Positions 3,814 to 31,141 of a DNA stretch of 64,000 nucleotides are shown piece by piece. Position numbers and translations under genes: made by a program. Under the pieces are notes generated by a model that was not told the DNA's origin, searched no databases, and worked only from the letters and a program-made list of their open reading frames with translations. Every line of letters begins with the position of its first letter. Position 1 is the stretch's first letter. Source of the stretch: Pseudisothecium myosuroides (taxonomy: Eukaryota; Streptophyta; Bryopsida; Hypnales; Lembophyllaceae); NCBI GenBank assembly GCA_951799445.1, contig OX637297.1, positions 4,960,001 through 5,024,000 of the forward strand. The letters are read 5' to 3'.

Positions 3814-3821
3814 ATCCAATC
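3814..3821. repeat. Left target-site duplication ATCCAATC
   Basis: This eight-base sequence is directly adjacent to the left inverted repeat and is repeated exactly and in the same orientation at 31134-31141. Eight-base duplications are characteristic of hAT transposition. Confidence 0.88.
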
Positions 3822-3878
3822 CTGGGTTGTCAGGACGTTCGGACGTTCGGACGTTCGGACGGACGTCCAAAGTCCGGG
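3822..3878 (+). repeat. Left terminal inverted repeat and subterminal repeats of giant hAT
   Basis: CTGGGTTGTCA is followed by three tandem copies of GGACGTTC (3833-3856) and then ACGTCCAAAGTCCGG. The order and sequence mirror the right end, where the reverse complement reads CTGGGTTGTCA, a GAACGTCCGG segment, then ACGTCCAAAATCCGG. Confidence 0.8.
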
Positions 3879-3939
3879 GACGCTGCCCCCCCAACGTCCT
3901 GTGACATTCACTTTTTATGTTTTTTACCTACATGGTAAA

Positions 3940-4571
3940 TTCCGCGACCGAAAAACCGACCGAGAGAAACCGACCGAAAAAACGACCGAGAGAACCCGAC
4001 CGACAAACCGACCGAAAAACCGACCGAGGACCCGACCGACTAACCGACCGAAAACCCGACCGACCGAAAACCCGACCGACCGTAAACTCGACCGAAAAAC
4101 CGATCGAGAGAAACCGACCGAAAAAACGACCGAAGACCCGACCGAAAAACCGACCGAGGACCCGACCGACTAACCGACCGAAAACCCGACCGATAACCGG
4201 ACCGACCGATAACCGGACCGACCGAAAACCCGAGCGACCAAAAACCCGACCGCCCGAGAACCGGACCGTCCGAAAACCCGACCAAAAACGCGTCCGAGAA
4301 CCGGACCGACCGAAAACCCGACCGAAAACCCGTCCAGAAACCGGACCGACCGAAAATGCGACAGACGACCGAAAACCAGACCGACCGAATTCTTGACCGA
4401 AAACCTGACCGAAAACCAGACCGACCGAATTCTCGACTGAAAACCGGACCAAAAACCGGACCGACCGACCGAAACCCCGACCGAAAACCTGACCGTCCGA
4501 AATCACGACCGAAAACCCGACCGTCAACCCAACCGATAACCCGTCCGAAAGTCCGACTGAAAACCTGACCT
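3940..4571 (+). repeat. CCGACCGAAAA tandem array (left)
   Basis: About 630 bp of short degenerate units with consensus CCGACCGAAAA or CCGACCGAAAACC. The long open frames crossing it on both strands (Arg/Pro/Thr or Gly/Phe/Arg repeats) come from the repeat and are not genes. Each unit contains ACCGAC, the core of the plant DRE/CRT element. An inverted counterpart lies at 14026-14700. Confidence 0.92.
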
Positions 4572-7179
4572 GACCCCAATCCCGACCCGTTTTTACAAGT
4601 TCTCCGAAGAAATTAATAAACATGCTTCAAATCGGTTGTTAAAATAATGTGAGCTTTGGGATTGTTGTGTTCTGTTTTTCTCTTTTTTTTAAAACACATG
4701 AACAATTTCCATTGATAAAAAGGATACAATACACCGAACCAAAGGGAGTTGTGTTCCAAGTTCCACTTTCATAATAAATGTATTAATGATTTTTTTTTTT
4801 CCGGGATTCTGAAACCTAGTTCCACTTACCAATTTTATAATGAATGAAAATTTAGTTATATTTTCCTAAATTTGTTTCCTAAATTTTTCACTCAAATATT
4901 TAAGAGAAAAAATTTAAGAAATGAATATCAATAGTTAAAAACTTATAAGCTTAGAAGGCACAAAGTGACAAAGCCAAATAATCTTGTCATACAAATTGTA
5001 CAAAATTTTTTTTTTTCCTTTTTTTTTGGTTTACAAGCTACTGAATGTTATAGGAGTAATGGGACTAGGTCACTAGGAACTCAACAATGAATGTACGCGG
5101 GTGTTTGAGTGGAAATAGAATTTTGCGTAAGGGTCCTTGAGAAGTTTTGGCTATGGTAAGAATTGCTTGGTGTGATGTAAATGATTGAAATGAATTAAGG
5201 ATATTTTGAAGAGTGCTGATTTTCATTGAAAGAAATAACAATTATTAGGAACAAAGGTCATCCCACGATGTCATGCAACTGCTTGCTATGAAAATGCGAC
5301 TACCATTGCGTTGAAGTAACCAAACAAGAACAATAGAGAAGTTTGGATTACCAGAAGAGAAGATCATCAATTTGGAACAATCAAAAATAAGAAATTTTAA
5401 TAGGTGTGGCATTTTTGGTTTATTATCACATCCTACTTTTGTGGAAAGACACTTCAATCGGTGTAAAAAGAAGTTCCTCTTTTTACACATTACTTTCAAG
5501 GAGGGGGGAAAATAACATTGTCTCAATATGGTTGTTGTACATTTTTTTGAAAGTTATTTTCACACCATCTTATTTTGGGTAAGATACTACGACTTCTATC
5601 AAAGTCTCAATTTAATCCACAAGGCATTGAACATGCATTTTGGTCTTTGGAGAACATAGCATTTTTGGGCAACTTACTACAAGCAGAGTTTTTATTTTTT
5701 TTAGTTCAAATTTTCACAAGGCATTTTCAGGAGGAGTAGCTTTAAGGTCCAACTTTTCTTCATAACTTCTAACCTAGAGATTAAAAAGTTATTGTATGAT
5801 ATATTGATATGTGATTTTTAATGCTTGGTGGGCAGCTCAAAAATTCTTAAAAATCGCTTTAAAAAAAGAATAAAACTTCAAACTAGTTCTCTAGATCTAT
5901 ATATGCAAGTTTAGGTTTGAATTTTTTTTTTTTCATTTATGAGATCAGAAGTACGCGGTGATCTAGTTTGCGGGCAATTCTGGATTCCTTGCTCAGAAAT
6001 AAACTTTAAAATCCTTTATTCAATTTAATTTTCAATATCTTTTGAAAAAAAGAAAAAAAAGAATGTAGATACATTACTACAACATTATAACCATTGGGAT
6101 TGGCATTTTCCAATTATATAATTAAATTCTTAACAATTTAGTGGTTTGAATCATTCACTACTTCTTTCTGTTTGCTATTTTTTTTCTATATGTTGTACAA
6201 TTCCTAATGTTTTGGAAATTTTCAAGCACAGAGCCAACTTCACCTTGAAAATGAATCCAAATGAAACCACCATTATTGATACTTTCCGATACAAATGAGA
6301 CCTTGTGAAATGCAGTTGTCCGGTTTTGGCCCGGACCTAAAAAACATTTCTGTCGATTCAAATGTTGTTACCCTGCAATATACATGGTGGACAATTCTGA
6401 AAATTTTTCTACATCTTCTTAAACCAATTCACTACAAGATCCTATGATTACATGTGTCCTAAAATATTTTCTTTCTAAAATTTGGGTTATTTTTTGGAAA
6501 TGGCAGTTTCGGAATGTTTTGGGTGAATATATACTCAACAACCTTTAGGGGTTAAGCTCACACCCTCAATTTTTCAAAAACAAACTTTTCGCAGCGTAAA
6601 ATTTTTTTTTTACATTGACACCTTTTCATCTTCAATTATGTACTATCATTGCTTTCGTTTTCTACCTCTCTTTTCACACCCTATTTTTTTGTGGGTAGGG
6701 GATTTGTATCCATGAAATGGTAAAAACCTTCAATCCTTATGAATCTTTTGAATGATATGAATTAAAATTTCCTTCCTAATTTAGACTTCACTTTCTGGCC
6801 TTTCGGATCTTGAAATTTTTCTAATATTCCTTTCACCCTACACATGTGTCCCTTGACGCCTAAGTTCAAAATATCCAAATGTCATATATCATTCTATTTG
6901 TCATGCAACCGCAACAATCCAATATCCATTAACAAGGAGTACTGCACTTCTCATCCACACAAAGCATACAATTTGTATAGTAAACATTTGTATTCATTAC
7001 AATTTGAAAAACACACAGAAAATCAAATTGTATATCCAATTCCACATACATTGGTATAGATTATATGTGCACACATACTACGTCTTCTACACACGATAAA
7101 TCCTCATATCTAAATTCATCCCCTAGTCCCCTACTTATGTACCTCTATAGATTACGGTAAGTTGGTAACCTACTGATAT
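4572..7179. other. AT-rich spacer 1 of giant hAT
   Basis: Very AT-rich with many A/T homopolymers and no supported gene. It contains one copy of the dispersed spacer module (5640-6545). The downstream part (about 6550-7170) shows nothing recognisable. Confidence 0.6.
5640..6545 (+). repeat. Spacer module I, copy 1
   Basis: Diverged repeat also found at about 9735-10700, 15735-16660 and 23972-24915. Landmarks in order are a CATAG..TTTTGGGCAACT-like start, GTAGCTTTAAGGTCCAAC, ATTGGCATTTTCCAATT, TAACAATTTAGTG, TGTACAATTCC, GACCTTGTGAAATGCAG and a terminal AACCTTTAGGGGTTAA. Confidence 0.7.
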
Positions 7180-8664
7180 TTAGTATGATTGCCGGAAATA
7201 TTCATCGGGCATAGGAAACTTGAAAGTAGTGCAGAATCGATTCACGACGTGAGCCAAAGTGCTTTCTTTTCTGATGACCCGTTGTAAGTACTCGTGAAAC
7301 GCCAGTCCCAATGTGTGGTGTTCGAATCTGCTGCATTGTGGAGTTTCCTTCTGCAATGCAGTGTAAGCCTCGGACATGCACTGCCTGCTCATCCTCTGAG
7401 CTATTTTAGCAACCGCATATGCTTCCGTTTCACATGATAACCTTGGAATGACGTCCTCATTCGCATCAATTTTGTGCAAGTAGGCGCTACTGGGATCCAA
7501 CCACCACCTCTGTGTCAAAGTTTGATCCCTCTGAATGGCAGATGTGAATGTGTACAAGGATTTAGGACGTTCACTAGCTAAGCTAGTTAAGCCCCAATCA
7601 CAAATTCCAACATACACACGTGACTCATCGTCGGGAAAGTGAAACATGATGTTGTCTGGAGAAATATCATTGTGGAGATGTCCAGCAACATGCACTGCAT
7701 TCATAATGTGCACGAACGCCCATGTAAGTTCCGTTCGCTTCTTCCTGAATCGAGCGAGGCGGAAAGCGTTAATCACCTCTGCTTCCGATGGATTGTCATA
7801 CATCAACCGAACCTGTATGTTGTCTGGATAATCATTATCCATGTTCAGCATATTTCGCAGTGTCCCACCATTCCACCAATAGGAGTACCCTTCATTCCTT
7901 GTTGCATGCACTGCAACAAAACGTATTACTCCAGGGTGCGCAATCCTCACTGCCATTGATTCGTTCAGGTGTTCCAACTTCGCTAACTCAGGCCTTTTAT
8001 TGTGTTGGTGAGATCTCTTTGCTGCAAACTCCCAAAACGGTACTATAGGAGCACATCCTTCAATTCGGACCCTCCGAATAGTAGCATATCCACCCTTTAT
8101 AATTTTATCATCTTGGGCAATCACTTGTGCCGTATCTAGAAGTGCAATGAGATGTCTCCTGCCATGGTACAATTCATCCTTTCCATCATCGCTATTCCAC
8201 CATGTCATTGATTTCCTTCTATTGCGCGTGTTAGCAAATGGCTTGCACCGCTTCGTGAATAAATTAGCTCTGAGGATAACTTCTTGAAAGGCTTCATCAT
8301 CGGCGCGGTGTTGCTTCACATATTTTGCGAGAACCACTTTGGAATTCCACAACGCATCATACGCCCTGTTGTGAAGGAATTTCACAAAGCCCTTCTTCTC
8401 CATTTCATGATGCCATTCAGGAACGTGAAGGGCTTCCATCATCTTCTGCGACATATCATCCATGAATTTCTTTGGGCACTCCTCTTGGTATCTGATGTAT
8501 TTATTGTCCAAGGAAAGAGTGGTTTCAGACTCAAAGAATTTCAAGGTGAATTCAATGAGAAAGTTCTTGCATGCATCAGAGGGAATTTCCTTCAACTCTT
8601 TGATACTTGGTTGCCCTGATTGCACCCCGTCTCGCCTCTTTGCAGCCTTCTTTGCCCTTGGCAT
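7180..8664 (-). CDS. Protein kinase-like protein (atypical HND/DWG), 494 aa
   Basis: The single-exon frame starts at an ATG (8664) and ends with TAA. Residues 1-20 are basic (PRAKKAAKRRD), a possible nuclear signal. A kinase-like fold is readable from about residue 188: a glycine-loop-like KGGYATIRRVRI (about 190-201), a candidate ATP lysine in EFAAKRSH (about 216), AHPGVIRFVAVH (strand 4), GGTLRNML (hinge), HNDISPDNIM as catalytic loop (about 331-340) and CDWG in place of DFG (about 355-358). HRD has become HND with the aspartate kept, so activity is possible. The first 180 residues are unrecognised. A GC-rich promoter with a TATA box at about 8917-8923 lies 250 bp upstream. It is the first cargo gene of the giant hAT element, and its role there is unknown. 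Confidence 0.8.
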   Translation of the reverse strand: MPRAKKAAKRRDGVQSGQPSIKELKEIPSDACKNFLIEFTLKFFESETTLSLDNKYIRYQEECPKKFMDDMSQKMMEALHVPEWHHEMEKKGFVKFLHNRAYDALWNSKVVLAKYVKQHRADDEAFQEVILRANLFTKRCKPFANTRNRRKSMTWWNSDDGKDELYHGRRHLIALLDTAQVIAQDDKIIKGGYATIRRVRIEGCAPIVPFWEFAAKRSHQHNKRPELAKLEHLNESMAVRIAHPGVIRFVAVHATRNEGYSYWWNGGTLRNMLNMDNDYPDNIQVRLMYDNPSEAEVINAFRLARFRKKRTELTWAFVHIMNAVHVAGHLHNDISPDNIMFHFPDDESRVYVGICDWGLTSLASERPKSLYTFTSAIQRDQTLTQRWWLDPSSAYLHKIDANEDVIPRLSCETEAYAVAKIAQRMSRQCMSEAYTALQKETPQCSRFEHHTLGLAFHEYLQRVIRKESTLAHVVNRFCTTFKFPMPDEYFRQSY

Positions 8665-8889
8665 CTTGATGAACTACCGGTATTTAATTACAATCGGTAA
8701 TGAAAATTACCAGTCGCGATTTCACTTCACTCTGGAGTACACGTAATCTGCAATCAAGTTGTCAAAAAAATTGGCAATAAGTAGCCCCCAAAACCGGACT
8801 CTTGCTTTCCCAAGGAGAGGAGCCAATGGAGGACAAACCACCAAGCTCTCCGCTCCACGCTTGCACAAGGCAAGGGGGATAGCAAAAGT

Positions 8890-9085
8890 GAGGGAGCGGT
8901 CTGGCCGTCCGCCCCTCTTATAGTTTGCGGTCGCCCCGACCGCCGAATCGGACGGCCCGACCGCTCCATCGAGCGCCCCGCCGCATCAGACGGCCCGACC
9001 ACTCCATCCGCCGCATCGGACGGCGGTGACAGATTAGGGTTCGGCTCGCGGTCGGCACAGTCGGCGGTCGGCAGACTGGGCGGTC
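8890..9085 (-). promoter_or_regulatory. CCGACCG-rich promoter of kinase-like gene
   Basis: A GC-rich tract with repeated GACCG/CCGACCG stands in an otherwise AT-rich spacer. At its gene-proximal edge the minus strand reads CTATAAGAGGGGCGGACGGC. This closely matches the CTATAAGAGCGGACGGC at 18842 upstream of the RING gene. The TATA box is about 255 bp from the ATG. Confidence 0.75.
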
Positions 9086-9239
9086 GGCGGGGAGTCGCTG
9101 GTTTTCTTAAGTTCGTAGAAAGATGGAAATAGAATTTTTTTCGCAACCGTGCCTACATTCCGGAAATCCAAAGTTCTGCTGAAATAAGCTGAAAATAGGG
9201 AAGAGGAGGGCTGAGGGCAGCCCAAAAGAAAGTTTTTTT

Positions 9240-12200
9240 GAGTGGATTTTTTTCCCATTCGTGCTACTGTTGTCTACCTAGAAATCTTTCATTCATTCCA
9301 TTTCAATTGGTTACAAATAGTTTTACACAATCTTATTTTCAAGGCACTTGAGAAAACGAACTTGTAGAATTTCATTGATGAATGCAATTTCTTCAATTTT
9401 TTTTTTCACAGAAACAGGTCTGTGTGGTTCATTTTTTTGGGCTACAATAATCTTACCATTGAATTACCCTAGTCTTATTTAATGCAAAAGATATTAAAAT
9501 TTAATGATTCATTGTATCCACTTTGGCACTTCCATATATGAATAATAAAAAATTTTGACAATTAAATTTTTTTTTAATTTCCTCTCGGCTAAACTACCAA
9601 CACAATTCTCCAACTTCCAGATTCAAAGCTCACAACTCACTATTGCAAAAATTTCAAGTGCGAAATCTTCAAAATCAAAACACTGCTTTCCATAATGTCT
9701 TTAAGAACTTCTTTTCTCTACTTTAACGCCTATAGGCCCAAATACTATTTTTGGGCAAGATATCAATTTTGGATAGTTTATTATGCATAGAATTTTTATT
9801 TTCATTATTTCAAATTTTCACACACGATGTGCTCTCCGAGTAGCTTTCAGGCGGATTAGGCCCAATAATTTCATAACATCTAACCACAAGGTCAGAAAGG
9901 TTTTGCATGATAAGTATTTTTTTTTATCTCTAGGCAGCTCAGGCAGCAAGAAAACGTCTTCAAAAATCACTTGCTTCAAAAATTAAAATTTAAAATTGGT
10001 TCTTCAGATTTGTATAAACAAAAGAAGCTTTGAATCATTCCATTAATCCATTCCGATCACCAAGCCAAAACTCAAGCGGATCTTTAGTTTGACGATATTT
10101 TTTCAATCCTTACTCCCAAAAAAAAATCAAAGTCATTTGTTTAATTCAAATTTCAGTATTTCTGGGAAAAAAAAAATATATTGGGTTTCAAGATTCTTTA
10201 TTTCAACATCACAACCATTGGGACTGGCATTTTTCAATTCCTTCATCAAATTCCTAACAATTTAGTGTTTTCAATCATCCTCTACTTTTTTCTATTTTGT
10301 ATTTTTTTCCTATGTGTTGTACAATTGTAAATGATCTGAAAATTGTCAAGCATGGACCGAACTTGCCTTCAAGAATGAATCCAAAGAGTTACCCCAATTT
10401 TCGTCATTTTTTAAAATGAATGTGACCTTGTGAAGTGCAGCTGCCCCGTTTTCCGGAGGGACCAAAGAAGCACTTTTGCGGATTGAAACACTATTATCTT
10501 ACAATCTAGATGGTGAAAAATTCTACAAGTTTTCCCGCATCTTTTCTAACCAGTTTACTACGAGATCCTACGGTTATATGTGTCCAACATTAAAAAGTTT
10601 ATAAAATTTGGTACTTATACTGAATCCAATAGTGCTACAGTAGTTTTGGTACAAACTTAGTCAAAAATCTTTAAAGGCTAAACACAAATATCTTGCAATA
10701 TGTGTGGTCCAAAATTATGTCTAATGCTCCACAAATTCTTATACTAGTTGGGTATAAGATCCTATGGCTACATGTGCCCAAAAATTAATTTTCTAATTGT
10801 TCTCTTCTTTCCTATAGAAATGGCAATTCACAATTGTAAGATTTGTTGCCAAAAATAAGGCCTTCGGCCTTGCGGGTTTAGGAATGTAAGTCGAGCTCTA
10901 TCTTCCTTAGAAGAGTTTTTTAAGTTTTCAACTGCATTCCTGGGGATAAGAAATTGTACAGTAAAGATCCATGGTGCGAAATATTTCTCCTAATGATAGT
11001 CCACTTGATGGAGCCCAAAATGCACATCCAATGTTGAACCCCAGAACTTCCATTGTCCCGTTCCAAGACAAAGGGAATTTTGAGCGGTTACCTCTAACCT
11101 CAATTTGTAATAAAACGTTCTGAAACTTTCCTATTTCATAGGAAAGTTGATTAGCTTTGTCATAATATGCTTTTATTTCAATTGGTGCCTGGGAGTAGAA
11201 GTTACACCAAAAAAACTCTGAAATTGAACTTGACGGGAAGCACAAATTATTTGGCAAATAGACAAAATGATTTTTTTTCCTTTTCTTCAAAATTTTTATA
11301 ATTCTCTCTATATGCGAACCTTCCATTCATTCTGTTTGGATTAATAATGGAAAAGTTATGGAGAACTTTGCTTTTCAGGGAATTTGAGCATCTTCTTAGG
11401 AAAATGACTTGTAGAAGTGTAGAACTCTTTTATCAATGCAATTCCCACAATTTTTCAATTTTTTTTTTTCAAAATGTTGTGTTTTCTAGCTTAAATAATC
11501 TCACCAATGGGATCATTATACTTCAACCCTATGTAAGATCTACTAACAATTTTTTTTCTTTCTTGTCTTCGACGTACTTCTATAGTTCTATTTAATAATT
11601 CTTAAAATAACGAAAATAAAGTGTTCCTTTTTTAAGAAAAATATAGACTTTCAACTTACGTCTCCAACACATAAAACCTTAAATTCAATGTTTGTATTTC
11701 AAAAATATTCCACAACTAGCGATCAAATTCACCAAAAACTGAAAGCCAGTATTCAAAAAAAAAAACTTTTTCGACTTCGAATGCTAATAACCTCAACCTA
11801 TACAGTGAAACTTCATGAAATTTTGACAACATCATCTACAATAAGTGAAGTACAAGATCGTACGCTTAGATTGGAAAAAAAAAGAAAAGAAAAGGGTTCA
11901 TGGGTGAATGCAGTAAAAATGGCAGCTTCGGGTGTTTGTAAACCAAAAAATGACCTTCGAACTTCAAGGGTTGAAAACACCCAATTTCTCCAACTTCAAA
12001 TGTTTACACCTTCCTTTCATGCAATCCGACTTTGTACATTCACATACAACACCCAAGTAACTGAAGACAAATGCAGCCAAGGTGACAATTTCTAATTTTC
12101 TATAGCTTTTTGAAAAAATGATAGACTTAGGATTTCAAGGTTTAAAAGCAATTCAATGTTTTTGTTGTATATTTGGACTATGCTTTTCATTGGAGAGTCT

Positions 12201-12430: not shown

Positions 12431-12482
12431 TTAACAATATACATGATCGTATTCTAAAAGAAAGTCGTTACAACAATACACA

Positions 12483-13589
12483 CTATTCCTCCTCGGAATC
12501 TGAATCGGTGTCATCTCTCTGACTTGGCCCAGTAGAAGCAGACCCATAAATCCCAAGATATGGACCTCCACCATAGATGTCTCCACGTCCACTTGATGCA
12601 CCTGTTTGTCCATAATTGCCGTAGCCAGGACCTCCAAAAGTTGGTGGAGGAGCTGAAACGTTGTAGTCAGAGCGATCTTCGTTTGGACGACTATAATAGG
12701 AGCTCCCGTGATGTTCATATGACCCACCTCCAGTGGTTCCACCGTAGTATTGTGAGCCTCCTTCGATGGAACCACCATACTGTACGGTTCCATGGGTTCT
12801 TTCTCTGCCTTCAGATTCACCTCGGGAATCATTAGCATATTGAGAATGACTTCCGCCTTGTGGTGGGCCATATGCACCACGGTCATGTCCGTATGACCTA
12901 TCGTGCCCAGGCTGTCGACCATGATCTTCTAGGCTCCTTCGCATTGCCTCATGCATTTCTTGTTCGTATTGTATGTTGTCTCGTTCTTCTTGGCGTTCGT
13001 GTCTTCCTCCAAATGTTACGGGTGCAAGAGCATCATCATCTTCATCATCGAGTTCGTCCTCTGCATCCGGCAACACAACTGTGGGAAGATGGCCAAATCC
13101 TCGATTAGACCACTCGTACATACAATCGCTCGGACCTTCCCAGTTCGAATCAATCACGTGGGCGCTGCGATTCAATTTGTGCACATCTTTTCCCGGAATA
13201 GTGCGCCAATCCACTTCTTTGTGGAGTACAATCTCTGCCCAAATCATGGCCATGACACCATACAACATTATATTTGGTTTGTTGTTTGGTAAACCTACTG
13301 CTTTTTGGATTTCCTTGTACCGTTGCACAAAGTGCTCGCTCTTACATGTGCTGATTTGACCTTCCCAACGGGGATGTTGATAAAGCGTGCGTTCACGTGA
13401 CCAGAGTTTGGAGACGTGTGTCATTTTCACGTACTTTTTGCACATTGTGGAGGTCCACAATTTCTCCTCCTCATCATCCCATCCAGGCTCAGCTACACAA
13501 AATGAGTTAGCCCAATCATCCCAATTTATGTCCTGCGATATTCCCCTTTTGGCCTTCTTGCCTTTGCCCCTTGGTGTTCTGTGTGACAT
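12483..13589 (-). CDS. Gly/Tyr-rich protein with N-terminal domain shared with RING gene, 368 aa
   Basis: Single-exon frame from ATG (13589) to TAG. Residues 1-15 are basic (RGKGKKAKR). Residues about 33-137 form a domain homologous to residues about 46-143 of the RING-H2 protein at 19072-22005. Shared positions are GW(D/E)(D/E)E, W-T-S-x-x-C-K-x-Y-V-K-M, K-L-W-x-R, C-x-S-x-x-F-V-x-R-x-K-E, and a final AE-x-x-L-x-(K/R)-x-VDW-x-T. An acidic stretch follows (DAEDELDDEDDD). The C-terminal 140 residues are low-complexity Gly/Tyr/Ser/His, resembling prion-like or RNA-binding tails, and the chain ends DSDSEEE. I recognise no known family. A TATA box lies about 285 bp upstream, after the common CCGACCG promoter. 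Second cargo gene of the giant hAT. Confidence 0.75.
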   Translation of the reverse strand: MSHRTPRGKGKKAKRGISQDINWDDWANSFCVAEPGWDDEEEKLWTSTMCKKYVKMTHVSKLWSRERTLYQHPRWEGQISTCKSEHFVQRYKEIQKAVGLPNNKPNIMLYGVMAMIWAEIVLHKEVDWRTIPGKDVHKLNRSAHVIDSNWEGPSDCMYEWSNRGFGHLPTVVLPDAEDELDDEDDDALAPVTFGGRHERQEERDNIQYEQEMHEAMRRSLEDHGRQPGHDRSYGHDRGAYGPPQGGSHSQYANDSRGESEGRERTHGTVQYGGSIEGGSQYYGGTTGGGSYEHHGSSYYSRPNEDRSDYNVSAPPPTFGGPGYGNYGQTGASSGRGDIYGGGPYLGIYGSASTGPSQRDDTDSDSEEE

Positions 13590-13859
13590 GATGATCTTTT
13601 GAAAATTGAAAACAACAAATCGTAAATTTCAATTTCGATTGTGCAACGCGTGGTCCAAATACTCGAGAATTTTAGTGAGTGAATTATTAATTGAAACGGT
13701 ACAATAGTCACTCAACCGCAACACATAACTAGCACTGAACTACTGAAAGCACTTCAGTGTCCCAGCCCAGTCCCTCACACACCAAGCCGGAAGGGGCGCG
13801 CAGATACCCAAAGGCGCTGGATCTGCCCACTCCGGTCGGGAAGGAACTGTGAAGAAATG

Positions 13860-14025
13860 AGGTTCCGCCCCGCTATTTATGCGTTCGGTCGGCGGAGCAG
13901 CCGAGGCGGTCGCGTACGTCCGAATCGGACGGCAGGCCGACCGACCCCAAGATCCTGCGGTTCTCATCTGTCGGTCTGCTGATCGCACGGCCACCGACGA
14001 AGGAGCGGACGGAAAAGGCGGACGG
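13860..14025 (-). promoter_or_regulatory. CCGACCG-rich promoter of Gly/Tyr-rich gene
   Basis: The GC-rich tract reads, on the minus strand, CCGACCG-type repeats and then GCATAAATAGCGGGGCGG (TATA at about 13873-13881). The TATA box lies about 285 bp before the ATG, matching the layout of the other three promoters. It runs directly into the tandem array at 14026-14700. Confidence 0.7.
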
Positions 14026-14700
14026 CGTGGACGGAGTCGGTCGGGTTTTCGGTCGGTCAGTTTTTCGGTCAGTTATTCGGTCGGGTTTTCGGTCGGTCCG
14101 GTTATCGGTCGGGTTTTCGGTCGGTCGGGTTCTCGGCCGGGATTTTGGTCGGGTTTTCGGTCGGTCCGGTTATCGGTCGCGTTTTCGGTCGGGTTTTCGG
14201 TCGGTCACGTTTTCGGCCAGGATATCGGTCGTGTTTTCGGTCGGCCCGGTTATCGGTCGGCCCGGTTATCGGTCGGGTTCTCGGTCTGGTTTTTGATCGG
14301 TCAGGTTTTCGGTCGGGATTTCGGTCGGTCGGGTTTTCGGTCGGGTTTTCGGTCGGTCAGGTTTTCGGTCGGGTTATCGGTCGGGTTCTCGGTCGGGTTT
14401 TCGGTCGGTCAGGTTTTCGGCCGGGATTTCGGTCGGGTTTTCGGTCGGCCCGGTTATCGGTCGGGTTCTCGGTCGGGTTTTCGGTCAGTCAGGTTTTCGG
14501 TAGGGATTTCGGTCGGTCGGGTTTTCGGTCGGGTTTTCGGTCGGTCAGGTTTTCGGTCTCCGGTTTTCGGTCCGCATTTCGGTTGGTCAGCTTTTCGGTC
14601 GGCTTCTCGGTCGATCAGTGGGGTTTTCGGTCGGTCACGATTTCGGTCGGCTTTTAGAGCGGCTTTTAGAGCGGTCGTCCGAGCGGTCTGGACAGAGGTC
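14026..14700 (-). repeat. CCGACCGAAAA tandem array (right, inverted)
   Basis: About 670 bp with plus-strand units GGTCGGTTTTC or GGTCGGGTTTTC, the reverse complement of the array at 3940-4571. The open frames through it (VFGRSGFRS-type repeats) are repeat artefacts. Confidence 0.92.
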
Positions 14701-14859
14701 GGGAAATCGGTCGGTGGCTTGGCACATTGGTCCGGAGAATAAACCTGAAGCGAAAATGCACCACATATGGACTCATGAAGTTCACGTGGACCAGAAATAA
14801 GTCACTAACTCAAAGTTCAAACGAGTTCTTTAAGTTCCTCATTCGATATCAAATGATTG

Positions 14860-22005: not shown

Positions 22006-22064
22006 ATGCAGCAACAAGTACAGAGCATGCATTAGTAGATGTGGCAGGGGCATTCGACAGGAGG

Positions 22065-22430
22065 ATGTTCGACATTATAATTCAATGGAGGGCATTCTTG
22101 TTGCAAGGAGATCGACCGAACAATTTGCAATCCGAAGACGATGATGTGGCAGTGAACGCGATGGTAGATCGAGTGGATGTTGCTTTGAGAGCTCTGAGCA
22201 CCGGCGAAGTAGATTTGACTCCCGCGAGGAAGAGGAAACGTAGGGTTGAAGATGAGGATGACCACTCTCCGGAATCAAAGCGGTTGTTTTCCAAGGTTGA
22301 CGAAGAAGTGCAATCCGGAGGGCGCATTGTTCGAGTAAGTCAACAATGCCAAACTCGACAAGCTGCTAGAAGACTCTTGGCTGGAGAAGGGACATCTCCT
22401 GTTTCGGGAGAAGGTAGTGGCAGGTGCTGA
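22065..22430 (+). CDS. Small basic hypothetical protein or 3' exon of RING gene
   Basis: The open frame continues upstream to a GTG at 22041, and the first ATG is at 22065 (121 residues). It carries a strong nuclear-signal-like run (PARKRKRRVEDED) and an Arg-rich end (RVSQQCQTRQAARRLL), ending TGA. It starts only 60 bp after the RING gene stop, in another frame. It may be a last exon joined by an intron near 22000-22040, or a separate small gene. I recognise no family. Confidence 0.5.
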   Translation: MFDIIIQWRAFLLQGDRPNNLQSEDDDVAVNAMVDRVDVALRALSTGEVDLTPARKRKRRVEDEDDHSPESKRLFSKVDEEVQSGGRIVRVSQQCQTRQAARRLLAGEGTSPVSGEGSGRC

Positions 22431-25317
22431 AGAATGATGTAGTTGGACTTTGGTTTTTTTAAAGTAGAAGTATATGGATTAGAGAGTGTCGTTTGGATGT
22501 CATGAGGAATTGAGGATTGACGTTCAATATTTCATAGTACTCTTGGTATGTTATGAGCTGCTTATAAAATGCAAATATATATGCAATACAAATATGTTTT
22601 GATTTTGCTATGACTTTATGGTACTTTTGAATGCACCTTCAAACAATTTTGTAAAATATATGTTTTGCGTGATTACATTGCAAGATAATGTTGTGTTTAT
22701 GATTTGTCAATGTCTATTATTCCTTGCATATGGAACGGAGAAGTTCATTCATTTTTTGCGACTCTAATTCATAGAACCGTAAATGCCCTTGGCTTCAAAT
22801 TTGGGTGGGGACAAAACTTTGAATTTTTAAAAAAAATAACAAAGTCGCTCTAATTAACAATGAACATGCCAAAGAAATACCGTATGAAGTCTAATTTTAT
22901 GGCCAAAAAACCCATTTTGGAATGATCGACTATGATTTTGCTATAAATGATTTTGTACAAGGGTACCAGTTTCAATCTTGATTTTCCTTATTATTCAATG
23001 TTCTTCAAAATGAGCGCTCGAAACAGTAGACGTTGGAAGCAAAAGCACATTAAAAATTCATTTAGAGAAATGTAGAGTACAATTTAAGAAGCCGTGAACT
23101 GATTGAGATTGTGCATGTGATAAACCCCTAAACCTTAATGTTTTTGCTTACTAACTTCATAGATTTGGAAAGGGAAAAGAGGCTCGGAAGACTTCAACTT
23201 TTGAAGTCATTTTTGCACTTAAAACACCTTCATGAATCATGATTATATAATCTTTGAATAGAAAAATTTTATTGTCATGAATTTTGTTCGCAGTAGGTCC
23301 TTTAATCCATAAGGTCTTCAACGTTCAGGTCTTGAATGATAATAGATTCAAACTTTTAGTCTTTTTTCATTTTGCTTCGATGATAGTGAACTTCATTTGT
23401 GGAAATACTTTTGTTATCACTTTGTTTCCATATGTGTTCGTTAGAGTTGGTGTTATTAGAATACATATTTATCTAATTTCGCTAGAATTACAAATGTACA
23501 AGTATACGAAGTGGTCAAGTGGTCAAGTGGCTGTCCAAGCCAAGACAGCCTTGAATCCTTGAATGTAGTTTGAAGTTGGACTTGCAGAAATGAGGTCATA
23601 GATATGAAGAACACAAGAATATTAGGAATTCATCATGCCAGAAGAATGTCCATTCAAATGCAGTCCAACAAATTTTTAATAAAGAAATGATGGTATTTTG
23701 CTTGTAGTTGAATGTAGAAGAAATTTCAAATTTTTCCTTGCTATCGGTATAGAAAAATATTAGAGACAGCATTGTTGACTTTAAATGTATTAGGCGGAAT
23801 GTATAATTCAGAATGCAGAACTTGAATGTGTATATTAAAGCCGGAATATTCTTTGAAGTAGTGCTTTGTAGAAATTTTCCTCGCATTTAAAATTGTAGAG
23901 AATAATCTTGATGTTTAGGGGTTCGTATGCAGAAATTGAATTTATATAGTGAATCCCTGAAGTACAAGACATGGTTTTCTGGAAACATAGTGATTTTGGG
24001 CAACTCACTGTTAATGAAATTTTATTTTTTTTCCTTTGAAATTTTCACACTAGATGTATGATGTATCCAAGGACTCAAGGAATATTTGTAAGGCGGTAAG
24101 GCCCAACAATTTTCATAACATTTGGTAACAAAGTGAAAAAGTTATTGCATGATATGTACTATGTAGTTTTCTTTGATGTTTGGACAACCCGGAAAGTAAA
24201 AAAAGGTTCTTCTAAAATCCCTTTTTATTAAATCAAAAATTTGAAATTGGCTCTATAGATTTATATATACGCGGGAAGCTTCAATCATTTATTTCAAATG
24301 AGTGAATCAAAATTTATAAGGATTCTTAGTTTGAAGGTAGTTATAGAATCCCTACTGTAAAAAAAGCTTTGAAGTCATTTATTTAATTTAAATTTCAATA
24401 TTGTTGGAAGAAAAGAAAACATTGGATGCAAATTATTTATTTTAACACTACAACCGTTTGAATTGGCACTTTCCAATTCTATAATAAAATTCGTAACAAT
24501 TTAATGATTTGATTCATTCTCCACTTCTTTCTACCTACTATTTTTTTTCTAACAATTGTACAATTTCAAATGAACTTAAAAAATTTCAAGCACGTGGCCA
24601 ACTTCTTTAGGAAAAAGAACCGAAAGATTTACAATCGGTTTTGTCATTTTATTATATAATGTGACTTTGTGAAGTGTAGGTGCCTTGATTTTCGCAGGGC
24701 CCAATAAAGCGTGTTTGTCGATTCAGAAGCTATTATCTTGCAATGTACATGGTGAAAATTTGAAAAAGTCTTTCCAGAATTTGTTTGAATAATTTACTAC
24801 GAGATACTCCGGTTATATGTATGGTGGAATTTTTTTTACCAGAATTTGCTACTTGTACTGGAGATGGCATTTTTCAAACAATTATGGTGAAAACATAGTA
24901 AAAAACCTTTAAAGGTTAAAGTTCAAAGAAAATGAAGTTCACTTCAAAAAAATATTGAGTTTCTGTTCAATGTAGAGCAAAATTTTTAGAAGATCTGAAA
25001 AAGACTTTGGCATTTGTGGATTAAATTGAAAATATGATAAAAAAAAACATTGAGGCCTAGTTAAAAGCACTCATAAATAGCTCTAAACCTCTATAGTACC
25101 CCATTTCAACTTGAAGTGGAATAGAAGTTTAGAACAACTATTTATAAGCGCCGGATAGAGTAGGATTCGAACTCGTGACCTCGTCATGAGCAATAATGAA
25201 ACAAACCTTTAAGTGCCCCCAATTGCAATGGCGGGTCAATCATCTACTAAATCCTCTATGCTCTGAATCCGTTATCCTTCATATTAAAGTGATGGGTGGA
25301 CGCCGAATTCCTCCTGG
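22431..25317. other. AT-rich spacer 4 of giant hAT
   Basis: No supported gene. It contains spacer module I copy 4 (23972-24915) followed directly by the 430-bp repeat (24905-25340) that recurs near the right end of the element. Short frames near 23284 and 23596 show no recognisable features. Confidence 0.6.
23972..24915 (+). repeat. Spacer module I, copy 4
   Basis: Landmarks are ACATAGTGATTTTGGGCAACT, GTAAGGCCCAAC, AATTGGCACTTTCCAATT, TAACAATTTAATG, TGTGACTTTGTGAAGTGTAG and AACCTTTAAAGGTTAA. It has the same order and orientation as the other copies. Confidence 0.7.
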
Positions 25318-25340
25318 CAATTGCCCAGCTCCGCCGACCG
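24905..25340 (+). repeat. 430-bp direct repeat, copy upstream of hAT gene
   Basis: It aligns along its length with 30414-30830. Shared blocks include AGTACCCCATTTCAACTTGAAGT, TATTTATAAGCGC.GGATA, TTCGAAC.C.TGACCTC, and the approach to the CCGACCGCCCCGAC tract. The two copies flank the transposase gene. The reverse strand of the middle (about 25164-25195) reads GAGGTCACGAGTTCGAATCC, a good match to a tRNA T-arm/B box. Confidence 0.8.
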
Positions 25341-25610
25341 CCCCGAATGGCCGACCGCCCTGACTTCCCCGACCGCCGCGATTGGCCGACCGCCCCGACT
25401 TCCCCGACCGCCCCTAATGGCCGACCGCCTCGAACGGCCGACCGCCCCGACTATCCCGACCGGCGGTTCCGGCCGACCGCTCCGAACGGCCGACCGCCCC
25501 GACTTCGCCGACCGCCTTGATCGGAAATCGGACGGCAGAAACTGACTGACCGTTGAAAGCGAGCAGATTTCCTCTACAACGGTCGGCAGCAGTTCAGGAG
25601 TATAAGTGCA
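25318..25610 (+). promoter_or_regulatory. CCGACCG-rich promoter of hAT transposase gene
   Basis: About 200 bp of CCGACCGCCCCGACT-type repeats (25330-25520) precede GAGTATAAGTGC (TATA at about 25600-25606). The TATA box is about 250 bp before the ATG at 25854. It has the same architecture as the cargo promoters. Confidence 0.75.
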
Positions 25611-25853
25611 AGGAAGAAAGTTTTTAGAAGCACTCCTGAGAAACTGAACGCTAAGATTTCCGAGGGCTAGGAGCTGCAATTTTTTGTGTCCCTTGCTTGG
25701 TAATGCATAGTTCAGTGGACGGGGGGGCCTTGATTTTCAAGGCTTTGTACACATCATGCTAAACTGATTTTGGACACTGTTGAGATTCTGACATTGTGTG
25801 TGCACTTTGTGATTTTGAATTGGTTCAATTATAAGGAATTCAAACTTGTCACT

Positions 25854-28800
25854 ATGAGCAAGGACTTCTCTCCTTGGTATGGCCTCGTGCCACCGAGTAA
25901 AGTGCAGTGCAAGGCTTGCAACTTGTTGTTTGCTAAAAAGCCTGCGCGAATGTTGAGCCATCTAGGATATGAAGGCGCATCTGGTGCTCGTGATATTGGA
26001 GTTTGCCTTTGTCCGAAATTGACATCAGAGATTCGAGGTCTATTTCGTCGTTGTGAAGGGAAATTCCCATGGAGATCGGGTGTGGACAATGTGGATAGAA
26101 ACAACATGCCCACGGACGGGAGTGACCTCTCCAATGGCAGGGACAGATCACATTCTACACAGGAAGATTCATGCACAATACCGCAAGAAATTCTTCGTGT
26201 GGGTTCGGAAGGGAATCGAATTACTGAAACATCTGGTGAACGTGGAACTCCCAGGGCATCCAGCAGTAGGCCGTACAAACAGAGCAGGCTAATAGATGGA
26301 TTTGAAGAAGCACACAAACGCAAATTGAATGCAGTGTGGGCCAATTTTTTTTATGCGGCAAATATACCATTTGCTGTAGCCCGAAATCCAGCCTTTAAAG
26401 AAGCAGTAAAACTCACGGTAGAGTGGAATAGGCCGTACACACCACCATCATATCATAATCTACGATGCAAATTGCTTGATGAAGCAAAGACGGACCTTCA
26501 AGCAAAGCTCCTGAGGAGAACCGAAGATAGCATAAGGAAGTTTGGAGCAACATTGTCTATTGATGGATGGAGCTCGGTTACAAACCGCCCATTGATAAAT
26601 GCCATGCTCGTATCTTCTGCCGGAGAGGAATTTGTTGGATCGGTAGATACAAGCGGGATGGAAAAAAACGCAGAGTATATGGCATCTGTCTTGGAAAAGT
26701 TTATAGAGCACGTGGGTCCCACCAATGTGGTACAAATCAGCGCTGATAATGCTCCGGTAAATCAAGCGGCATGGAATTTGGTATCCAGTAAGTATCCACA
26801 CATTTATTCTCAAGGATGCGTGGTGCATGCCTTGAATTTGTTGTTGAAAGATTGGGGGAAGGAAAAATGGATTGATGAGTATCTGAAGAAAGCCCATGCC
26901 ATTGTGAAATTCTTCAAGAGTAGGCAGATGCCGCTTGCTATATTTCGAAAGCACGAGACGAAATATAGCTTGTTGTTGCCGGCCAAAACGAGGTTTGCCT
27001 CGAATTTTATTATGATTCACCGTTTGTTGAAGGTCAAAGTAGCATTACAACAAAGTGTGGTGGATCCGCAGTGGGTGGAGTATGTGCGGAAGCTAAAGGA
27101 CAATCGGAAAACACAACCCCGGTCTGAGTCTCGAGATGTCAAGAAATTTGTTCTTGATTTGCATTTCTGGAATCGTTGTGTCAATATCCGAGATGTAGTG
27201 GGTCCAGTTGTATTTGCTCTACGCGACTTGGATGCGAAGACACCATGCATGGGAAAGGTATTGCATATTATGAAGGGTTTAGAGAAACATGTGATGGACT
27301 TGGAGAAAGAGCCATTTTCTTTGCCTGCAAATCGAGCAGAACGACTGCAGGCCTCATTTGTGAACCGACGAAAAATGGGGGAGACAGATCTACACTATGC
27401 AGGAGCTCTTCTGAACCCGTACTTGCTGCACGATAAAGAACTAGCTGACGACACAAATGCAACAGAGGCATGCAAGCGAGTTATAATGAAAATTTGTAAA
27501 CCCGAAGATTACGCAATGGTCGTGAGGGAATTTGTAGCCTTTCGACATAGAACCCCTCCGTTCCATAACATGTTAGACCCGGGCGAACAGATGTTGTCGG
27601 CACATGCTTGGTGGGATTTTGAAGGTACATGTGGGAAGCTCATTGCTCCAATTGCAAAGAGGATATTGGCCCAACCAGTATCATCATCTTCATGCGAACA
27701 AAATTGGAGTAACTATTCATTTGTCCACAACAAATCTCGGAACAAGTTGAAGCCACAAAGAGCAGCAGATTTGGTGTATGTGTACAGCAATTTGAAAGTT
27801 TTAACGGCATCAAAAGAAAATGATGAGAAGAAGTGGTACCATGAGAACGTGGAGTCAGAAGATTCAGAGGGGTTTATCTCGGAAGACGAGGAAGTTGACG
27901 AGGATTATGGGCCACAATTCAGTGAGGAAAATGCCATAAACGACGACATGCAGGACTATGACAATGGACCGCTTCAGAGCCCTAATCGCAGTAATGAAGA
28001 CTTTGGGGTCAATCATCGAGACGCTTATGAGTTCGATGAATCGGACGAGGACATCAATATGGACAATGAAGATAATATTCCCCTAGCTAGATTTTGCGAT
28101 GGGACCGGATTTTTGAATAGCCAAAATATTGTATCGCAAGGGGAAGCGGCTTACGTAGAAGATCCGGAGGCGAATGGGACAAGGAATGTCAATGATGACA
28201 CTCCAAAAGCGGATGAAGTTCTTCAAAGTTTGAAGTGTACATCCATGACAATGGTAGAAGTGCAAGAGAATGAAGAGTACATTGACAAAGGAGGATGTCA
28301 GTTGAATGTTCGAATGAATGTGGGCAATGCAAGTGTTCAATCCATTGTGGTATTGGCAAATGAGAAGAGCGGGGAACGAAGTCATGAAAATGACAAGCCA
28401 AGCGAAGTCCAAAGAAATGTTGATGGAGGTTTGATACATGGGTCTGAGAGCCCAATTTCTTTGGACCATGATGAAGATAAGAAACAAGTCATTGAAGAAT
28501 GCAGAGGAGCACGATATAGCGGTGTTCTTCCTGTAGCACGCGAAACTCCTAGTGTAGCATTGGATGGCTCAGAAAGTTCAGGTGTAGGAAGACGACTTGT
28601 CCGAATTTCCAAAAAAATGCAACCTCGTATCAATTCATCTCCAATCAATTTACCATCGACCGATGGTGAGATGAACGAGACATTGGAAGAAATGTTTATT
28701 CGGGAATCTGGTCATGCACCACCACGGCGCTCAACAAAATCGTCAGCTCCTACAACGTTGTCTTTGAATGCAATGAAGGTAACTATTCAAGGAGGAGCTG

Positions 28801-29183
28801 GAGCAGTGAAATTGGATGCCCAACACTCCATAAAATCCAAAAGGAAAAGGAAAATGGAGCCTTTTGCAGCGAGCCCAACCAAGAGACAAGGTGTAGGTAG
28901 AACTCCCCTTGATGCATGTCTTCCTTCTTCGAAGGGGAAAATGAAAACAATTCCTTCCCTTCATGAAGATAGGAGGAACGCCATATTAAGAGTAAAAAGG
29001 GAAAAGAGTAAGGACCAACCAAGGAGATTATCTACATCAAGGCAAGTACAGCACGAAGGAGTGAGAACTTTGTATTCTTCATCTGACGACATGGAAGTGA
29101 CATCCGATGAAGATGTGGAATGGAGAAGTAGAGGAGATTGTAGTGGGGCTGAGGTAAAAGGGGATAGTGATTATAAGCCTTAG
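25854..29183 (+). CDS. hAT-superfamily transposase with long acidic C-terminal tail, 1109 aa
   Basis: Single-exon frame. I use the ATG at 25854, since the preceding in-frame TTG at 25770 is not a standard start. An N-terminal BED-like zinc finger is seen at about 10-57 (VQCKACNLLF...HLGYEGASG). A DUF659/RNase-H-like core follows, with candidate catalytic aspartates in SIDGWSS (about 237) and QISADNAPVN (about 301). The hAT C-terminal dimerisation motif SSSCEQNWSNYSFVH is at about 611-625, with the likely catalytic glutamate, then NKSRNKLKPQRAADLVYVY. These order and spacing features fit plant hAT transposases. About 430 extra residues follow: acidic (SEDEEVDEDYG), then a basic signal-like KSKRKRKM. 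hAT transposases are usually 600-800 residues, so the tail is unusual. The reading frame is intact. It probably mobilises the 3822-31133 element. Confidence 0.9.
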   Translation: MSKDFSPWYGLVPPSKVQCKACNLLFAKKPARMLSHLGYEGASGARDIGVCLCPKLTSEIRGLFRRCEGKFPWRSGVDNVDRNNMPTDGSDLSNGRDRSHSTQEDSCTIPQEILRVGSEGNRITETSGERGTPRASSSRPYKQSRLIDGFEEAHKRKLNAVWANFFYAANIPFAVARNPAFKEAVKLTVEWNRPYTPPSYHNLRCKLLDEAKTDLQAKLLRRTEDSIRKFGATLSIDGWSSVTNRPLINAMLVSSAGEEFVGSVDTSGMEKNAEYMASVLEKFIEHVGPTNVVQISADNAPVNQAAWNLVSSKYPHIYSQGCVVHALNLLLKDWGKEKWIDEYLKKAHAIVKFFKSRQMPLAIFRKHETKYSLLLPAKTRFASNFIMIHRLLKVKVALQQSVVDPQWVEYVRKLKDNRKTQPRSESRDVKKFVLDLHFWNRCVNIRDVVGPVVFALRDLDAKTPCMGKVLHIMKGLEKHVMDLEKEPFSLPANRAERLQASFVNRRKMGETDLHYAGALLNPYLLHDKELADDTNATEACKRVIMKICKPEDYAMVVREFVAFRHRTPPFHNMLDPGEQMLSAHAWWDFEGTCGKLIAPIAKRILAQPVSSSSCEQNWSNYSFVHNKSRNKLKPQRAADLVYVYSNLKVLTASKENDEKKWYHENVESEDSEGFISEDEEVDEDYGPQFSEENAINDDMQDYDNGPLQSPNRSNEDFGVNHRDAYEFDESDEDINMDNEDNIPLARFCDGTGFLNSQNIVSQGEAAYVEDPEANGTRNVNDDTPKADEVLQSLKCTSMTMVEVQENEEYIDKGGCQLNVRMNVGNASVQSIVVLANEKSGERSHENDKPSEVQRNVDGGLIHGSESPISLDHDEDKKQVIEECRGARYSGVLPVARETPSVALDGSESSGVGRRLVRISKKMQPRINSSPINLPSTDGEMNETLEEMFIRESGHAPPRRSTKSSAPTTLSLNAMKVTIQGGAGAVKLDAQHSIKSKRKRKMEPFAASPTKRQGVGRTPLDACLPSSKGKMKTIPSLHEDRRNAILRVKREKSKDQPRRLSTSRQVQHEGVRTLYSSSDDMEVTSDEDVEWRSRGDCSGAEVKGDSDYKP

Positions 29184-30780
29184 AGATTGAAAGGCCTTGA
29201 ATCGCTTAGATGTTTTGATGCTCATACATAGAGCACGTAATGGTAATTGGTTGGTAGAACATTATATTGTGGTACTAGTTGTCTACTTTGCTTAGTGATG
29301 TACAAAACACCACTAAGATGGTTTGATATTCAAACTGTTGGATTATAATTCAATAAAGTTTGATTGTATGTTTTCTTACTTCAATGAAGCATAATATATT
29401 GCAAGAATTGTATGTAGTGAAGAGTTTCACCTTCATAGTTGTCCTAATTTAACCCCTAAAGGACCATTGTCCGTTTGGCGGACATTTGGGATTTTGGGCA
29501 GGTACCTACAGGCTAAATTTTTGTCTTCATTTTTTGAAACTTTTTTTGAAGATAGGAAAACTGATAAGCTTCATGGGAATATAATTTTTTTTTCAATTGG
29601 TGCCCGGGAACAAAAGTTACGCCCAAATAAGCTCAAAACAAGGGAGAGGGGGCAGCAAAAAAAATGTTGCAAATTTCATTTTATTTTATTTTAAATTTTT
29701 TTCCCATAGATTATATTTTTGTCTATCCCTAAAGCTTTGATTCATTCCATTTGGATTTGTTATGAGAAAGTTATGGACAATCTATTTTTTCGGGCACTTA
29801 GAGCATCTTCTGATCTTTCTGAAAAAAAACACTTGTAGGATTCATTTTTGAATGCAATGTTTATAATTTTAAAAAAAAAAAAATTCCGCGTGATTTAGTG
29901 TTTTTGCTAGAACAATCTCACCGTTGGGATTAGTTCATTTCAATTCTATGTAAAAGATATTAATATTTTAGATTTTCCTTCTATCTCATACCTATTTCTA
30001 CTTAACAATTTTTTTAGTAATGAAAATTAAGTTTTTTTGATTTGATTTTTTTTGCTAGACTCTCAACTCAATTATAAAATATATAGATTTAAAGCTCAAA
30101 ACTCTGTAGTGCAGAAATTTCAAGTTAAAAATGTTCAAAGTCAAAAAATCTCGTCCCACAATGTGCTGCAAAACTTGTTTTTTTCACTTTAAACGCAGAT
30201 ATCTTGCAATCAGTGTGGTCAAAAATTTTGAAATATTTTCCACGCATTGCCATATTAGTAAAGTATAAGATCCTATGGTTATGTGATAAAAAAAATAATT
30301 TTCAATTTTTTTTACCCTTAAACCTAAAAATGGCAGTTTTGAGTGCTTTTTGGCCAAAAAATGGCCTTGAAACTTTAGGGGTTAATATGTGTAAATTAAA
30401 TTTATACAGCTAAAATTCAAAAAGAATGAATGTGACCTACAAAAATGTTGGATTTCTATTCGATGTAGATCAAAATTCCTAAAAGTTCCCAAAAAGACTT
30501 CGGCATATTTGAATTAAGATGAAAAAATGAGTCAAAAAACAATGAGGCCTGACTAAAAGCGCTTATACCTCTATAGTACCCCATTTCAACTTGAAGTAGA
30601 ATAGAAATCTGTAACTATTTATAAGCGCTGGATATTGAAAATGAAGAACAAGGTACAAAGTAAGTTTCGAACCCATGACCTCTTGAACATCAATAATGAA
30701 ATAACTCCGCAAGTGGCTGCAATTGCAATAGGCCAATAGCTGATGTACCATGTATGTTCTAAAATTTTTTCCGTCCCTGT
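29184..30780. other. AT-rich spacer 5 of giant hAT
   Basis: No supported gene. It contains spacer module II (about 29700-30180), a partial module I end (about 30180-30410, with ATAAGATCCTATGGTTA and AACTTTAGGGGTTAA) and the second copy of the 430-bp repeat. Confidence 0.6.
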
Positions 30781-30830
30781 TAAAGTGACAGCCTGAAATC
30801 CTGAACCCCTCCGGCCGACCGCCCCGACCG
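30414..30830 (+). repeat. 430-bp direct repeat, copy near right end
   Basis: Second copy of the repeat at 24905-25340. It likewise leads into a CCGACCG tract, but no gene follows here. The tRNA-like B box is also present on the minus strand (GAGGTCATGGGTTCGAAAC, about 30666-30690). Confidence 0.8.
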
Positions 30831-31083
30831 ACTCAACGCCGACCCCGATTACCGACACCGGCAGCCGACCGACGCAGTCAGCTCACCGACAGCGAAAAGC
30901 CGACCGACCGGCGTCCGCCGACCGACGCGGTCGTCAAACCGACAGCGGAAAGCCGACCGATGCGGTCGTCAAGACGACCGCCGACCGCGGCGTCCGAATT
31001 ACCTGAGGTAATTTTTTTTTACGGCAGTTTTACCCACCCCGTCCGATCAGTCGCTGCGTCCCGACGTCCGACCGTCCAGACGT
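30795..31083. repeat. Right subterminal CCGACCG-rich block
   Basis: GC-rich tract with repeated CCGACCGAC, GCCGACCGA and GTCCGACCGTCC. It resembles the gene promoters but lies between spacer and right terminus with no downstream gene inside the element. It may be a transposase-binding subterminal region or an orphan promoter. Confidence 0.65.
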
Positions 31084-31133
31084 CCGGATTTTGGACGTGA
31101 TTTAGTCCCGGACGTTCAGTTTTGACAACCCAG
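31084..31133 (-). repeat. Right terminal inverted repeat of giant hAT
   Basis: The last 11 bases, TGACAACCCAG, are the exact reverse complement of 3822-3832. Further in, CCGGATTTTGGACGT (31084-31098) matches the complement of 3864-3878 with one mismatch. Confidence 0.85.
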
Positions 31134-31141
31134 ATCCAATC
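31134..31141. repeat. Right target-site duplication ATCCAATC
   Basis: Exact repeat of 3814-3821 in the same orientation, directly abutting the right inverted repeat. Confidence 0.88.

Follow-up and report, generated by a model that had tools for sequence, protein, structure and literature searches.

Structure, copies and gene content of a 27-kb multi-gene hAT element in the moss Pseudisothecium myosuroides

The window analysed here is a stretch of 64,000 nucleotides from the moss Pseudisothecium myosuroides (GenBank assembly GCA_951799445.1, contig OX637297.1, positions 4,960,001 to 5,024,000 of the forward strand), and its subject is an interval of 27,312 bp that had been predicted, from the letters of the window, to be an intact giant hAT transposon carrying several genes. 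hAT transposons, among them the plant Ac/Ds and Tam3 elements, are known mostly as single-gene elements. The interval encodes a hAT transposase, a kinase-like protein, a RING-H2 protein, and a Gly/Tyr-rich protein (GY), and, judged from its recurrence elsewhere in the genome, it belongs to a multi-copy family and was probably mobile recently. Positions below are counted from the first nucleotide of the window.

Ends and genes of the element

The boundaries, the genes, and a related uninterrupted site are the following.

3814..3821, no strand: left target site duplication ATCCAATC, 8 bp
3822..3832, plus strand: left terminal inverted repeat (TIR) CTGGGTTGTCA, 11 bp, common to other copies
7180..8664, minus strand: protein kinase-like gene, 494 amino acids; Pfam Pkinase below cut-off, catalytic residues invariant
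12483..13589, minus strand: GY gene, 368 amino acids; N-terminal domain in common with the RING protein
19063..22005, plus strand: RING-H2 gene, frame shortened by a 37-bp deletion; C3H2C3 residues invariant
22041..22430, plus strand: out-of-frame C-terminal part of the RING gene, aligning with the C-terminus of RING relatives
25857..29183, plus strand: hAT transposase, 1108 amino acids; DUF659 and C-terminal dimerisation region
31123..31133, minus strand: right TIR, 11 bp
31134..31141, no strand: right target site duplication ATCCAATC, 8 bp
56722..57435, minus strand, outside the element: uninterrupted target-site relative (empty-site paralogue), to which the joined flanks align across the junction

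The perfect 11-bp inverted repeat and the perfect 8-bp direct duplication outside it are present exactly as first described. The 11-mer occurs at only two places in the window, the two element ends, and a search for inverted repeats lying directly inside 8-bp direct repeats returned a single pair with 11-bp arms, again the element ends, and 4 pairs with 8-bp arms; 12 random windows generated by an order-2 Markov model contained 0 and altogether 8 such pairs, respectively. A chance TIR is ruled out by these random windows, by the genome-wide count of the 11-mer (178 occurrences versus 62 for the reversed control), and by the duplications of other copies, which are a stronger check on the ends than the window statistics. 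The extended inverted similarity that had been described beyond the TIRs is weak: its local score is 33, with a maximum of 30 in 500 shuffles, and the direct-orientation similarity of the same ends scores 50. The search for an empty site was successful within the window itself: the joined flanks of the element match 57435-56722 at 72.8% over 668 positions, with a score of 181 versus a shuffled maximum of 20.

The transposase frame is open from the ATG at 25857, as originally predicted, and both of its hAT-type Pfam domains score above cut-off (DUF659, 121.2 bits, cut-off 34.7; Dimer_Tnp_hAT, 36.1 bits, cut-off 21.4). Asp236, Asp297, and Glu614, which we take to be the DDE triad of the transposase, are invariant across 23 aligned rows. 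By its duplication, TIRs, and domains, the element belongs to the hAT superfamily. A viral origin was rejected, as no relative was found in viral contig scans with the transposase alignment, the kinase, and the kinase alignment, and a phage origin was rejected likewise, as the transposase had no match in the phage collection.

The Pfam Pkinase score of the kinase-like gene (23.3 bits) lies below the cut-off of 31.7; Lys216, Asp333, Asn338, and Asp356, which correspond to the catalytic lysine, the HND-type aspartate, the asparagine, and the DWG aspartate, are invariant in 17 aligned rows, and the gene retains the catalytic residues expected of a kinase (Lys, HRD-type Asp and Asn, and DFG-type Asp). 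The Pfam RING scores of the RING gene fall just under cut-off, and all eight C3H2C3 zinc ligands are invariant in 14 aligned rows, as expected of a RING-H2 protein. No Pfam family was found for GY, which has its N-terminal domain in common with the RING protein (33% over 123 residues, E 6e-19). The window copy of the RING gene lacks 37 bp that are present in six other complete copies, and it is this deletion that split the small open reading frame (ORF) off the RING frame. Of the four items of the predicted cargo, the kinase-like, RING-H2, and Gly/Tyr-rich genes thus stand, and the small ORF is instead the frameshifted RING tail; similarly, the description of the element as intact holds for its transposase and not for its RING gene.

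Copies of the element and their gene set

The genome searched comprises 387,930,709 bases in 222 contigs (388 Mb). Among the matches listed for the 11-mer (the first 100 of the 178), nine convergent end pairs of about 27 kb, one of 33 kb, and one of 32.6 kb were picked; listed pairs at C5:1.57-1.61 Mb and C2:36.54-36.59 Mb and two at C2:44.8 Mb lie outside the tested set. The ends of the nine pairs of about 27 kb are 89–99% identical to those of the window element over the aligned parts, and seven of these pairs are bordered by perfect 8-bp duplications that differ from one another, one by a duplication with two mismatches, and one by none. A perfect 8-bp duplication also borders the 32.6-kb pair, and a perfect duplication of their own is accordingly found in eight of the ten further family end pairs, in addition to the window copy. 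The 33-kb pair has more distant ends (71–77% over parts) and a duplication with one mismatch, and encloses a kinase of 87% and a RING gene of 81% identity. Six other sites with the 11-mer (L006-L011) do not resemble the ends of the family, and the 11-mer alone is therefore not diagnostic.

Six copies fetched whole are collinear with 97.1–100% of the window element, and the pairwise substitution divergence among the seven copies (window plus six) is 0.54–1.66%. One complete copy lacks 12052-12828, which is part of GY. The seven copies carry 745 private substitutions, of which C-to-T and G-to-A changes make up 67%, and the decay rates amount to 0.103 per CG, 0.083 per CHG, and 0.020 per CHH site; decay at CG and CHG sites is a mark of plant-type methylated DNA. 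The search proposed in the original prediction, for copies with the same ends, gene set, and their own 8-bp duplications, thus found them, and these copies, together with the empty-site relative in the window, support the proposal that the interval was mobilised in its entirety as a single hAT unit. The duplications and the empty-site paralogue are the observed traces of the presumed cut-and-paste transposition.

The scored transposase matches (42 out of 424 first-look candidates) give lower bounds: 38 are at least 96% identical, 12 of which are full length without a stop, and 4 are at 66–68%. On the basis of 56 of 87 kinase rows, the kinase lies upstream, on the opposite strand and within 45 kb, of all 38 close transposases (23 of them at 18.0–19.6 kb), and this linkage holds for 38 of the 41 kinases with at least 93% identity. 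On the basis of 43 of 51 RING rows (8 rows at 57–61% being left out), the RING gene lies upstream and on the same strand of all 38 close transposases (24 at 6.78–6.88 kb, the farthest at 20.6 kb), and 38 of the 43 rows are linked to a transposase. Among the five unlinked RING rows, three are near the three unlinked close kinases, one is near an 87% kinase, and the fifth is the remaining piece of a RING gene that is split on C4. At the place expected for the kinase, 14 of 23 further copies have kinase DNA, 7 have other DNA of the element, and 2 have neither. Because the kinase and RING genes accompany all 38 close transposases scored, they form a constant set of genes and not cargo picked up by chance; the predicted cargo genes do travel with the element, and they are better read as a conserved set. 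Pack-type transposons carry variable gene fragments and no transposase of their own, and this identity is ruled out by the whole genes and by the constant presence of kinase and RING genes.

A second subfamily is represented on C8 by a copy with a transposase at 66%, in which the order GY (minus), RING (plus), transposase (plus) is kept, the RING gene being spread over several frames. Motif clusters of the kind described below precede GY, RING, and transposase each, and one motif lies elsewhere; module A or B was not found in this copy, nor was a kinase in the stretches fetched, and a 67% kinase lies 37.6 kb upstream. When the window element is compared with the copy on C8, the ratio of nonsynonymous to synonymous substitution rates (dN/dS) comes to 0.30 in the transposase, 0.31 in RING, and 0.44 in GY, some codons of the latter two having been counted twice in overlapping alignment pieces. 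C11 carries a transposase of the 66–68% level together with a kinase and a RING gene within about 16 kb.

Relatives of the gene set also occur elsewhere. Transposase and RING relatives were found on database contigs of 17,649 and of 8,444 bases, each pair with the same source, and transposase and kinase relatives on contigs of 27,639 bases, again with the same source; equal size and source imply, without proving, a single shared contig for each pair. On contig L001, filed under a cyanobacterial metagenome-assembled genome (MAG) and eukaryotic by its genes, the C-terminal part of a transposase precedes a RING gene of the same orientation, with a copy of the end motif with one mismatch and a module B match (E 6.5e-10). 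Downstream of this RING gene, at 6145-6291 of L001, a GC-rich 21-bp tandem array built from a different motif runs off the contig, and is perhaps the subterminal array of a distant relative. On L002 and L003, pieces of hAT occur with no recognised partner gene beside them, and at less than 4 kb both contigs are too short to judge. L001-L003 are all hAT-bearing, apparently eukaryotic contigs filed in prokaryotic MAGs (Synechococcales, Halorubrum, and Lachnospiraceae). The named kinase relatives include two Ceratodon clusters at 48% and 42%, one with 126 member sequences; a 62% relative is filed under a Bacilli MAG, which is taken for contamination. The Ceratodon kinases and the decay at CG and CHG sites would by themselves point to a bryophyte as host.

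A proposed autonomous four-gene transposon and its alternatives

We consider that the interval is a giant autonomous hAT transposon whose unit of inheritance comprises four genes, and assign this explanation a probability of roughly three in four. The DUF659-type transposase would cut at the 11-bp TIRs and insert with an 8-bp target duplication, a chemistry expected from its family, and the RING-H2, kinase, and GY proteins would be the products of fixed accessory genes. The motif arrays at the ends and promoters may bind the transposase or a host regulator, such that mobilisation and expression would be controlled together, and the targets of the accessory proteins may be the transposase complex or host silencing, with RING working as a ubiquitin ligase and the kinase by phosphorylation. 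What was observed directly in support of this explanation are the ends, the duplications, the many similar copies, their collinearity, the co-occurrence of transposase, kinase, and RING genes, and, between the subfamilies, a low dN/dS for both RING and GY.

The arrays consist of the motif CCGACCG/CGGTCGG, all 96 window occurrences of which lie inside the element. In the seven copies, all 664 occurrences fall in six zones, one at each end and one upstream of each gene, which together cover 4,685 of 27,312 bp.

3833..4800, no strand: left-end zone, 29 motifs, presumed binding sites
8665..9265, no strand: zone upstream of the kinase gene, 5 motifs
13590..14790, no strand: zone upstream of GY, 37 motifs
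18300..19062, no strand: zone upstream of the RING gene, 4 motifs
25150..25856, no strand: zone upstream of the transposase gene, 12 motifs
30700..31122, no strand: right-end zone, 9 motifs

The arrays are thus candidate binding sites. The repeat contains RCCGAC, the core sequence of the cold- and drought-responsive element of plants, and 48 of its 61 window occurrences lie inside the transposon. A tentative extension, to which we give somewhat less than even odds, is that a deep plant hAT lineage has become a self-regulating four-gene parasite, in which the shared promoter motif is also the end-recognition motif; such a parasite would control expression, protein turnover, and perhaps host silencing in a virus-like manner, and the whole set may be switchable by stress via RCCGAC.

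Several observations weigh against the explanation of an autonomous four-gene transposon. Two of the ten family pairs lack a perfect duplication, and the six motif zones were drawn after the window had been seen, the six other copies being related rather than independent. The linkage count leaves aside 31 kinase rows at 53–63%, and among the rows that it covers, no kinase lies within 45 kb of two of the four transposases at 66–68%. GY is present in the seven complete copies, in one of them partly deleted, a count confined to complete copies rather than genome-wide. The frames open to their end in the seven complete copies are six for the kinase, five for GY, four for the transposase, and one for RING, and the nonsynonymous-to-synonymous ratios versus expectation among these copies (0.83–1.15) are near neutral and say nothing for function, as would fit decay after insertion. 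Finally, transposition and accessory function alike are deduced from sequence. As a separate observation, the 31 kinase relatives at 53–63% may mark older subfamilies, and stop-free RING copies are more numerous genome-wide than the one in seven complete copies suggests.

The RING frames broken in many copies and the near-neutral ratios would equally be expected if a single capture of unrelated host genes by a hAT element had been followed by its amplification, with kinase, RING, and GY as passengers without a role in its life cycle. Fungi do have DNA transposons that carry TET/JBP or alpha-kinase genes, and their TET/JBP genes seem to be transmitted passively (PMC12730594). However, RING and GY persist beside a transposase of only 66% identity with dN/dS values well short of neutrality, RING adjoins a distant transposase on L001, the domain common to RING and GY points to a duplication inside the element, and the motif arrays serve all four genes; the passenger explanation is thus unlikely, although it is the best of the alternatives.

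The element also contains two kinds of AT-rich module, which raise the question of a composite origin.

5608..6556, plus strand: AT-rich module A, with further copies at 9714-10683, 15693-16665, and 23942-24921
29449..30383, plus strand: AT-rich module B, with further copies or parts at 11034-11972, 17797-18547, 9122-9740 with 10678-10878, and 4763-5020

Modules A and B are related, about 1 kb long, and in a single orientation, with ends that read like imperfect inverted repeats TTTAACCCCTAAAG. Together they account for 7,548 of the 18,025 noncoding bases of the element, none occur outside it in the window, and a search of the reversed window gave no match. They may be either miniature inverted-repeat transposable elements (MITEs) or part of the element. 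In a nested origin, smaller elements and MITE-like modules would have inserted into each other until an outer pair of ends mobilised the pile, and this would account for the inverted ends of the modules, for the A copy at 9714-10683 lying inside a B copy (9122-10878) as if inserted, for the B-like sequence that flanks two copies outside the element, and for the absence of both modules from subfamily 2. Such an origin is nevertheless very improbable, as no second close TIR pair was found inside the window element, and as gene order and orientation are kept in subfamily 2 without the modules; nesting may therefore account for the modules but not for the set of genes. As the source of that set and of the outer boundary, a composite origin is ruled out by the end pairs, the collinear copies, and subfamily 2. 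The copy at C3:37380492-37408254 (L024/L025) lies in a B-like repeat, and its duplication CCCTAAAG is part of the module end motif.

An assembly artefact or collapsed repeat mimicking a mobile unit, which might be suspected from the likeness of the copies and the 222 contigs of the assembly, is scarcely credible, since the flanks stop at the TIRs and differ between copies, eight distinct perfect duplications lie outside the window, and the joined window flanks match an uninterrupted relative.

Related systems and flanking sequence

Plant hATs such as Ac/Ds and Tam3, as well as the algal Gulliver, resemble the element in their hAT transposase, short TIRs, and 8-bp duplications, but the plant elements have a single gene, in contrast to the four genes and 27 kb found here. 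Fungal Starships are likewise very large and carry several genes, but their cargo is variable, whereas a hAT transposase and a constant gene set are found here; Starship identity is ruled out, as a Pfam scan of the element's five ORFs gave no DUF3435 domain. The comparison with Starships made in the original prediction is apt for size and fails for the leading enzyme, which in Starships is a tyrosine recombinase with DUF3435 (PMC12506042).

In a survey of 276 plant hAT sequences, the longest consensus is Gulliver, with 7144 bp, and no Physcomitrella hAT was found (PMC6027215). The nearest published idea found is fungal hAT7 with TET/JBP, which, like IS3EU with its alpha-kinase, has an enzyme gene besides the transposase; hAT7 differs in its 7-bp duplications, its other added gene, and its fungal hosts (PMC12730594). 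ToxhAT, now ToxTA, was once presented as a hAT-like transposon of 14 kb carrying a cargo gene, but its duplication is a 2-bp TA, its TIRs are 74 bp long, and its authors now place it near Tc1/Mariner (PMC12506042). Teratorn of medaka is likewise a giant DNA transposon in which a transposon core is joined to many other genes, but it is piggyBac-like, fused with more genes, and 180 kb long (PMC10175614). A literature search limited to open-licence texts listed no giant multi-gene hAT in plants; what is new is the size and the constant gene set.

The element suggests that the hAT superfamily can grow into large multi-gene parasites, with four genes, of which three are tracked in at least 38 close copies and two are kept in a distant subfamily. 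Its dozens of copies, open frames, and mapped insertions make it possible to test the size limit of cut-and-paste transposons and the contest between plant transposons and silencing. They also carry a warning for annotation, as kinase and RING families can be transposon genes, and the related moss proteins in public databases (Ceratodon) may be transposon-derived likewise.

In the remainder of the window, twenty flank ORFs were scanned, and Pfam matches that exceed the cut-off are confined to the ORFs at 42703-43407 and 54181-54849, each with a NIF phosphatase domain; no Rfam match and no tRNA was found. Three related copies of one protein without a known family lie at 32268-33695 (minus), 54850-55929, and 61861-62733, and the repeated sets of flank ORFs (32268-63777) may be parts of further large mobile elements. 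At 47787-47965 lies a 65-bp inverted repeat whose arms are 98% complementary and separated by 49 bases.

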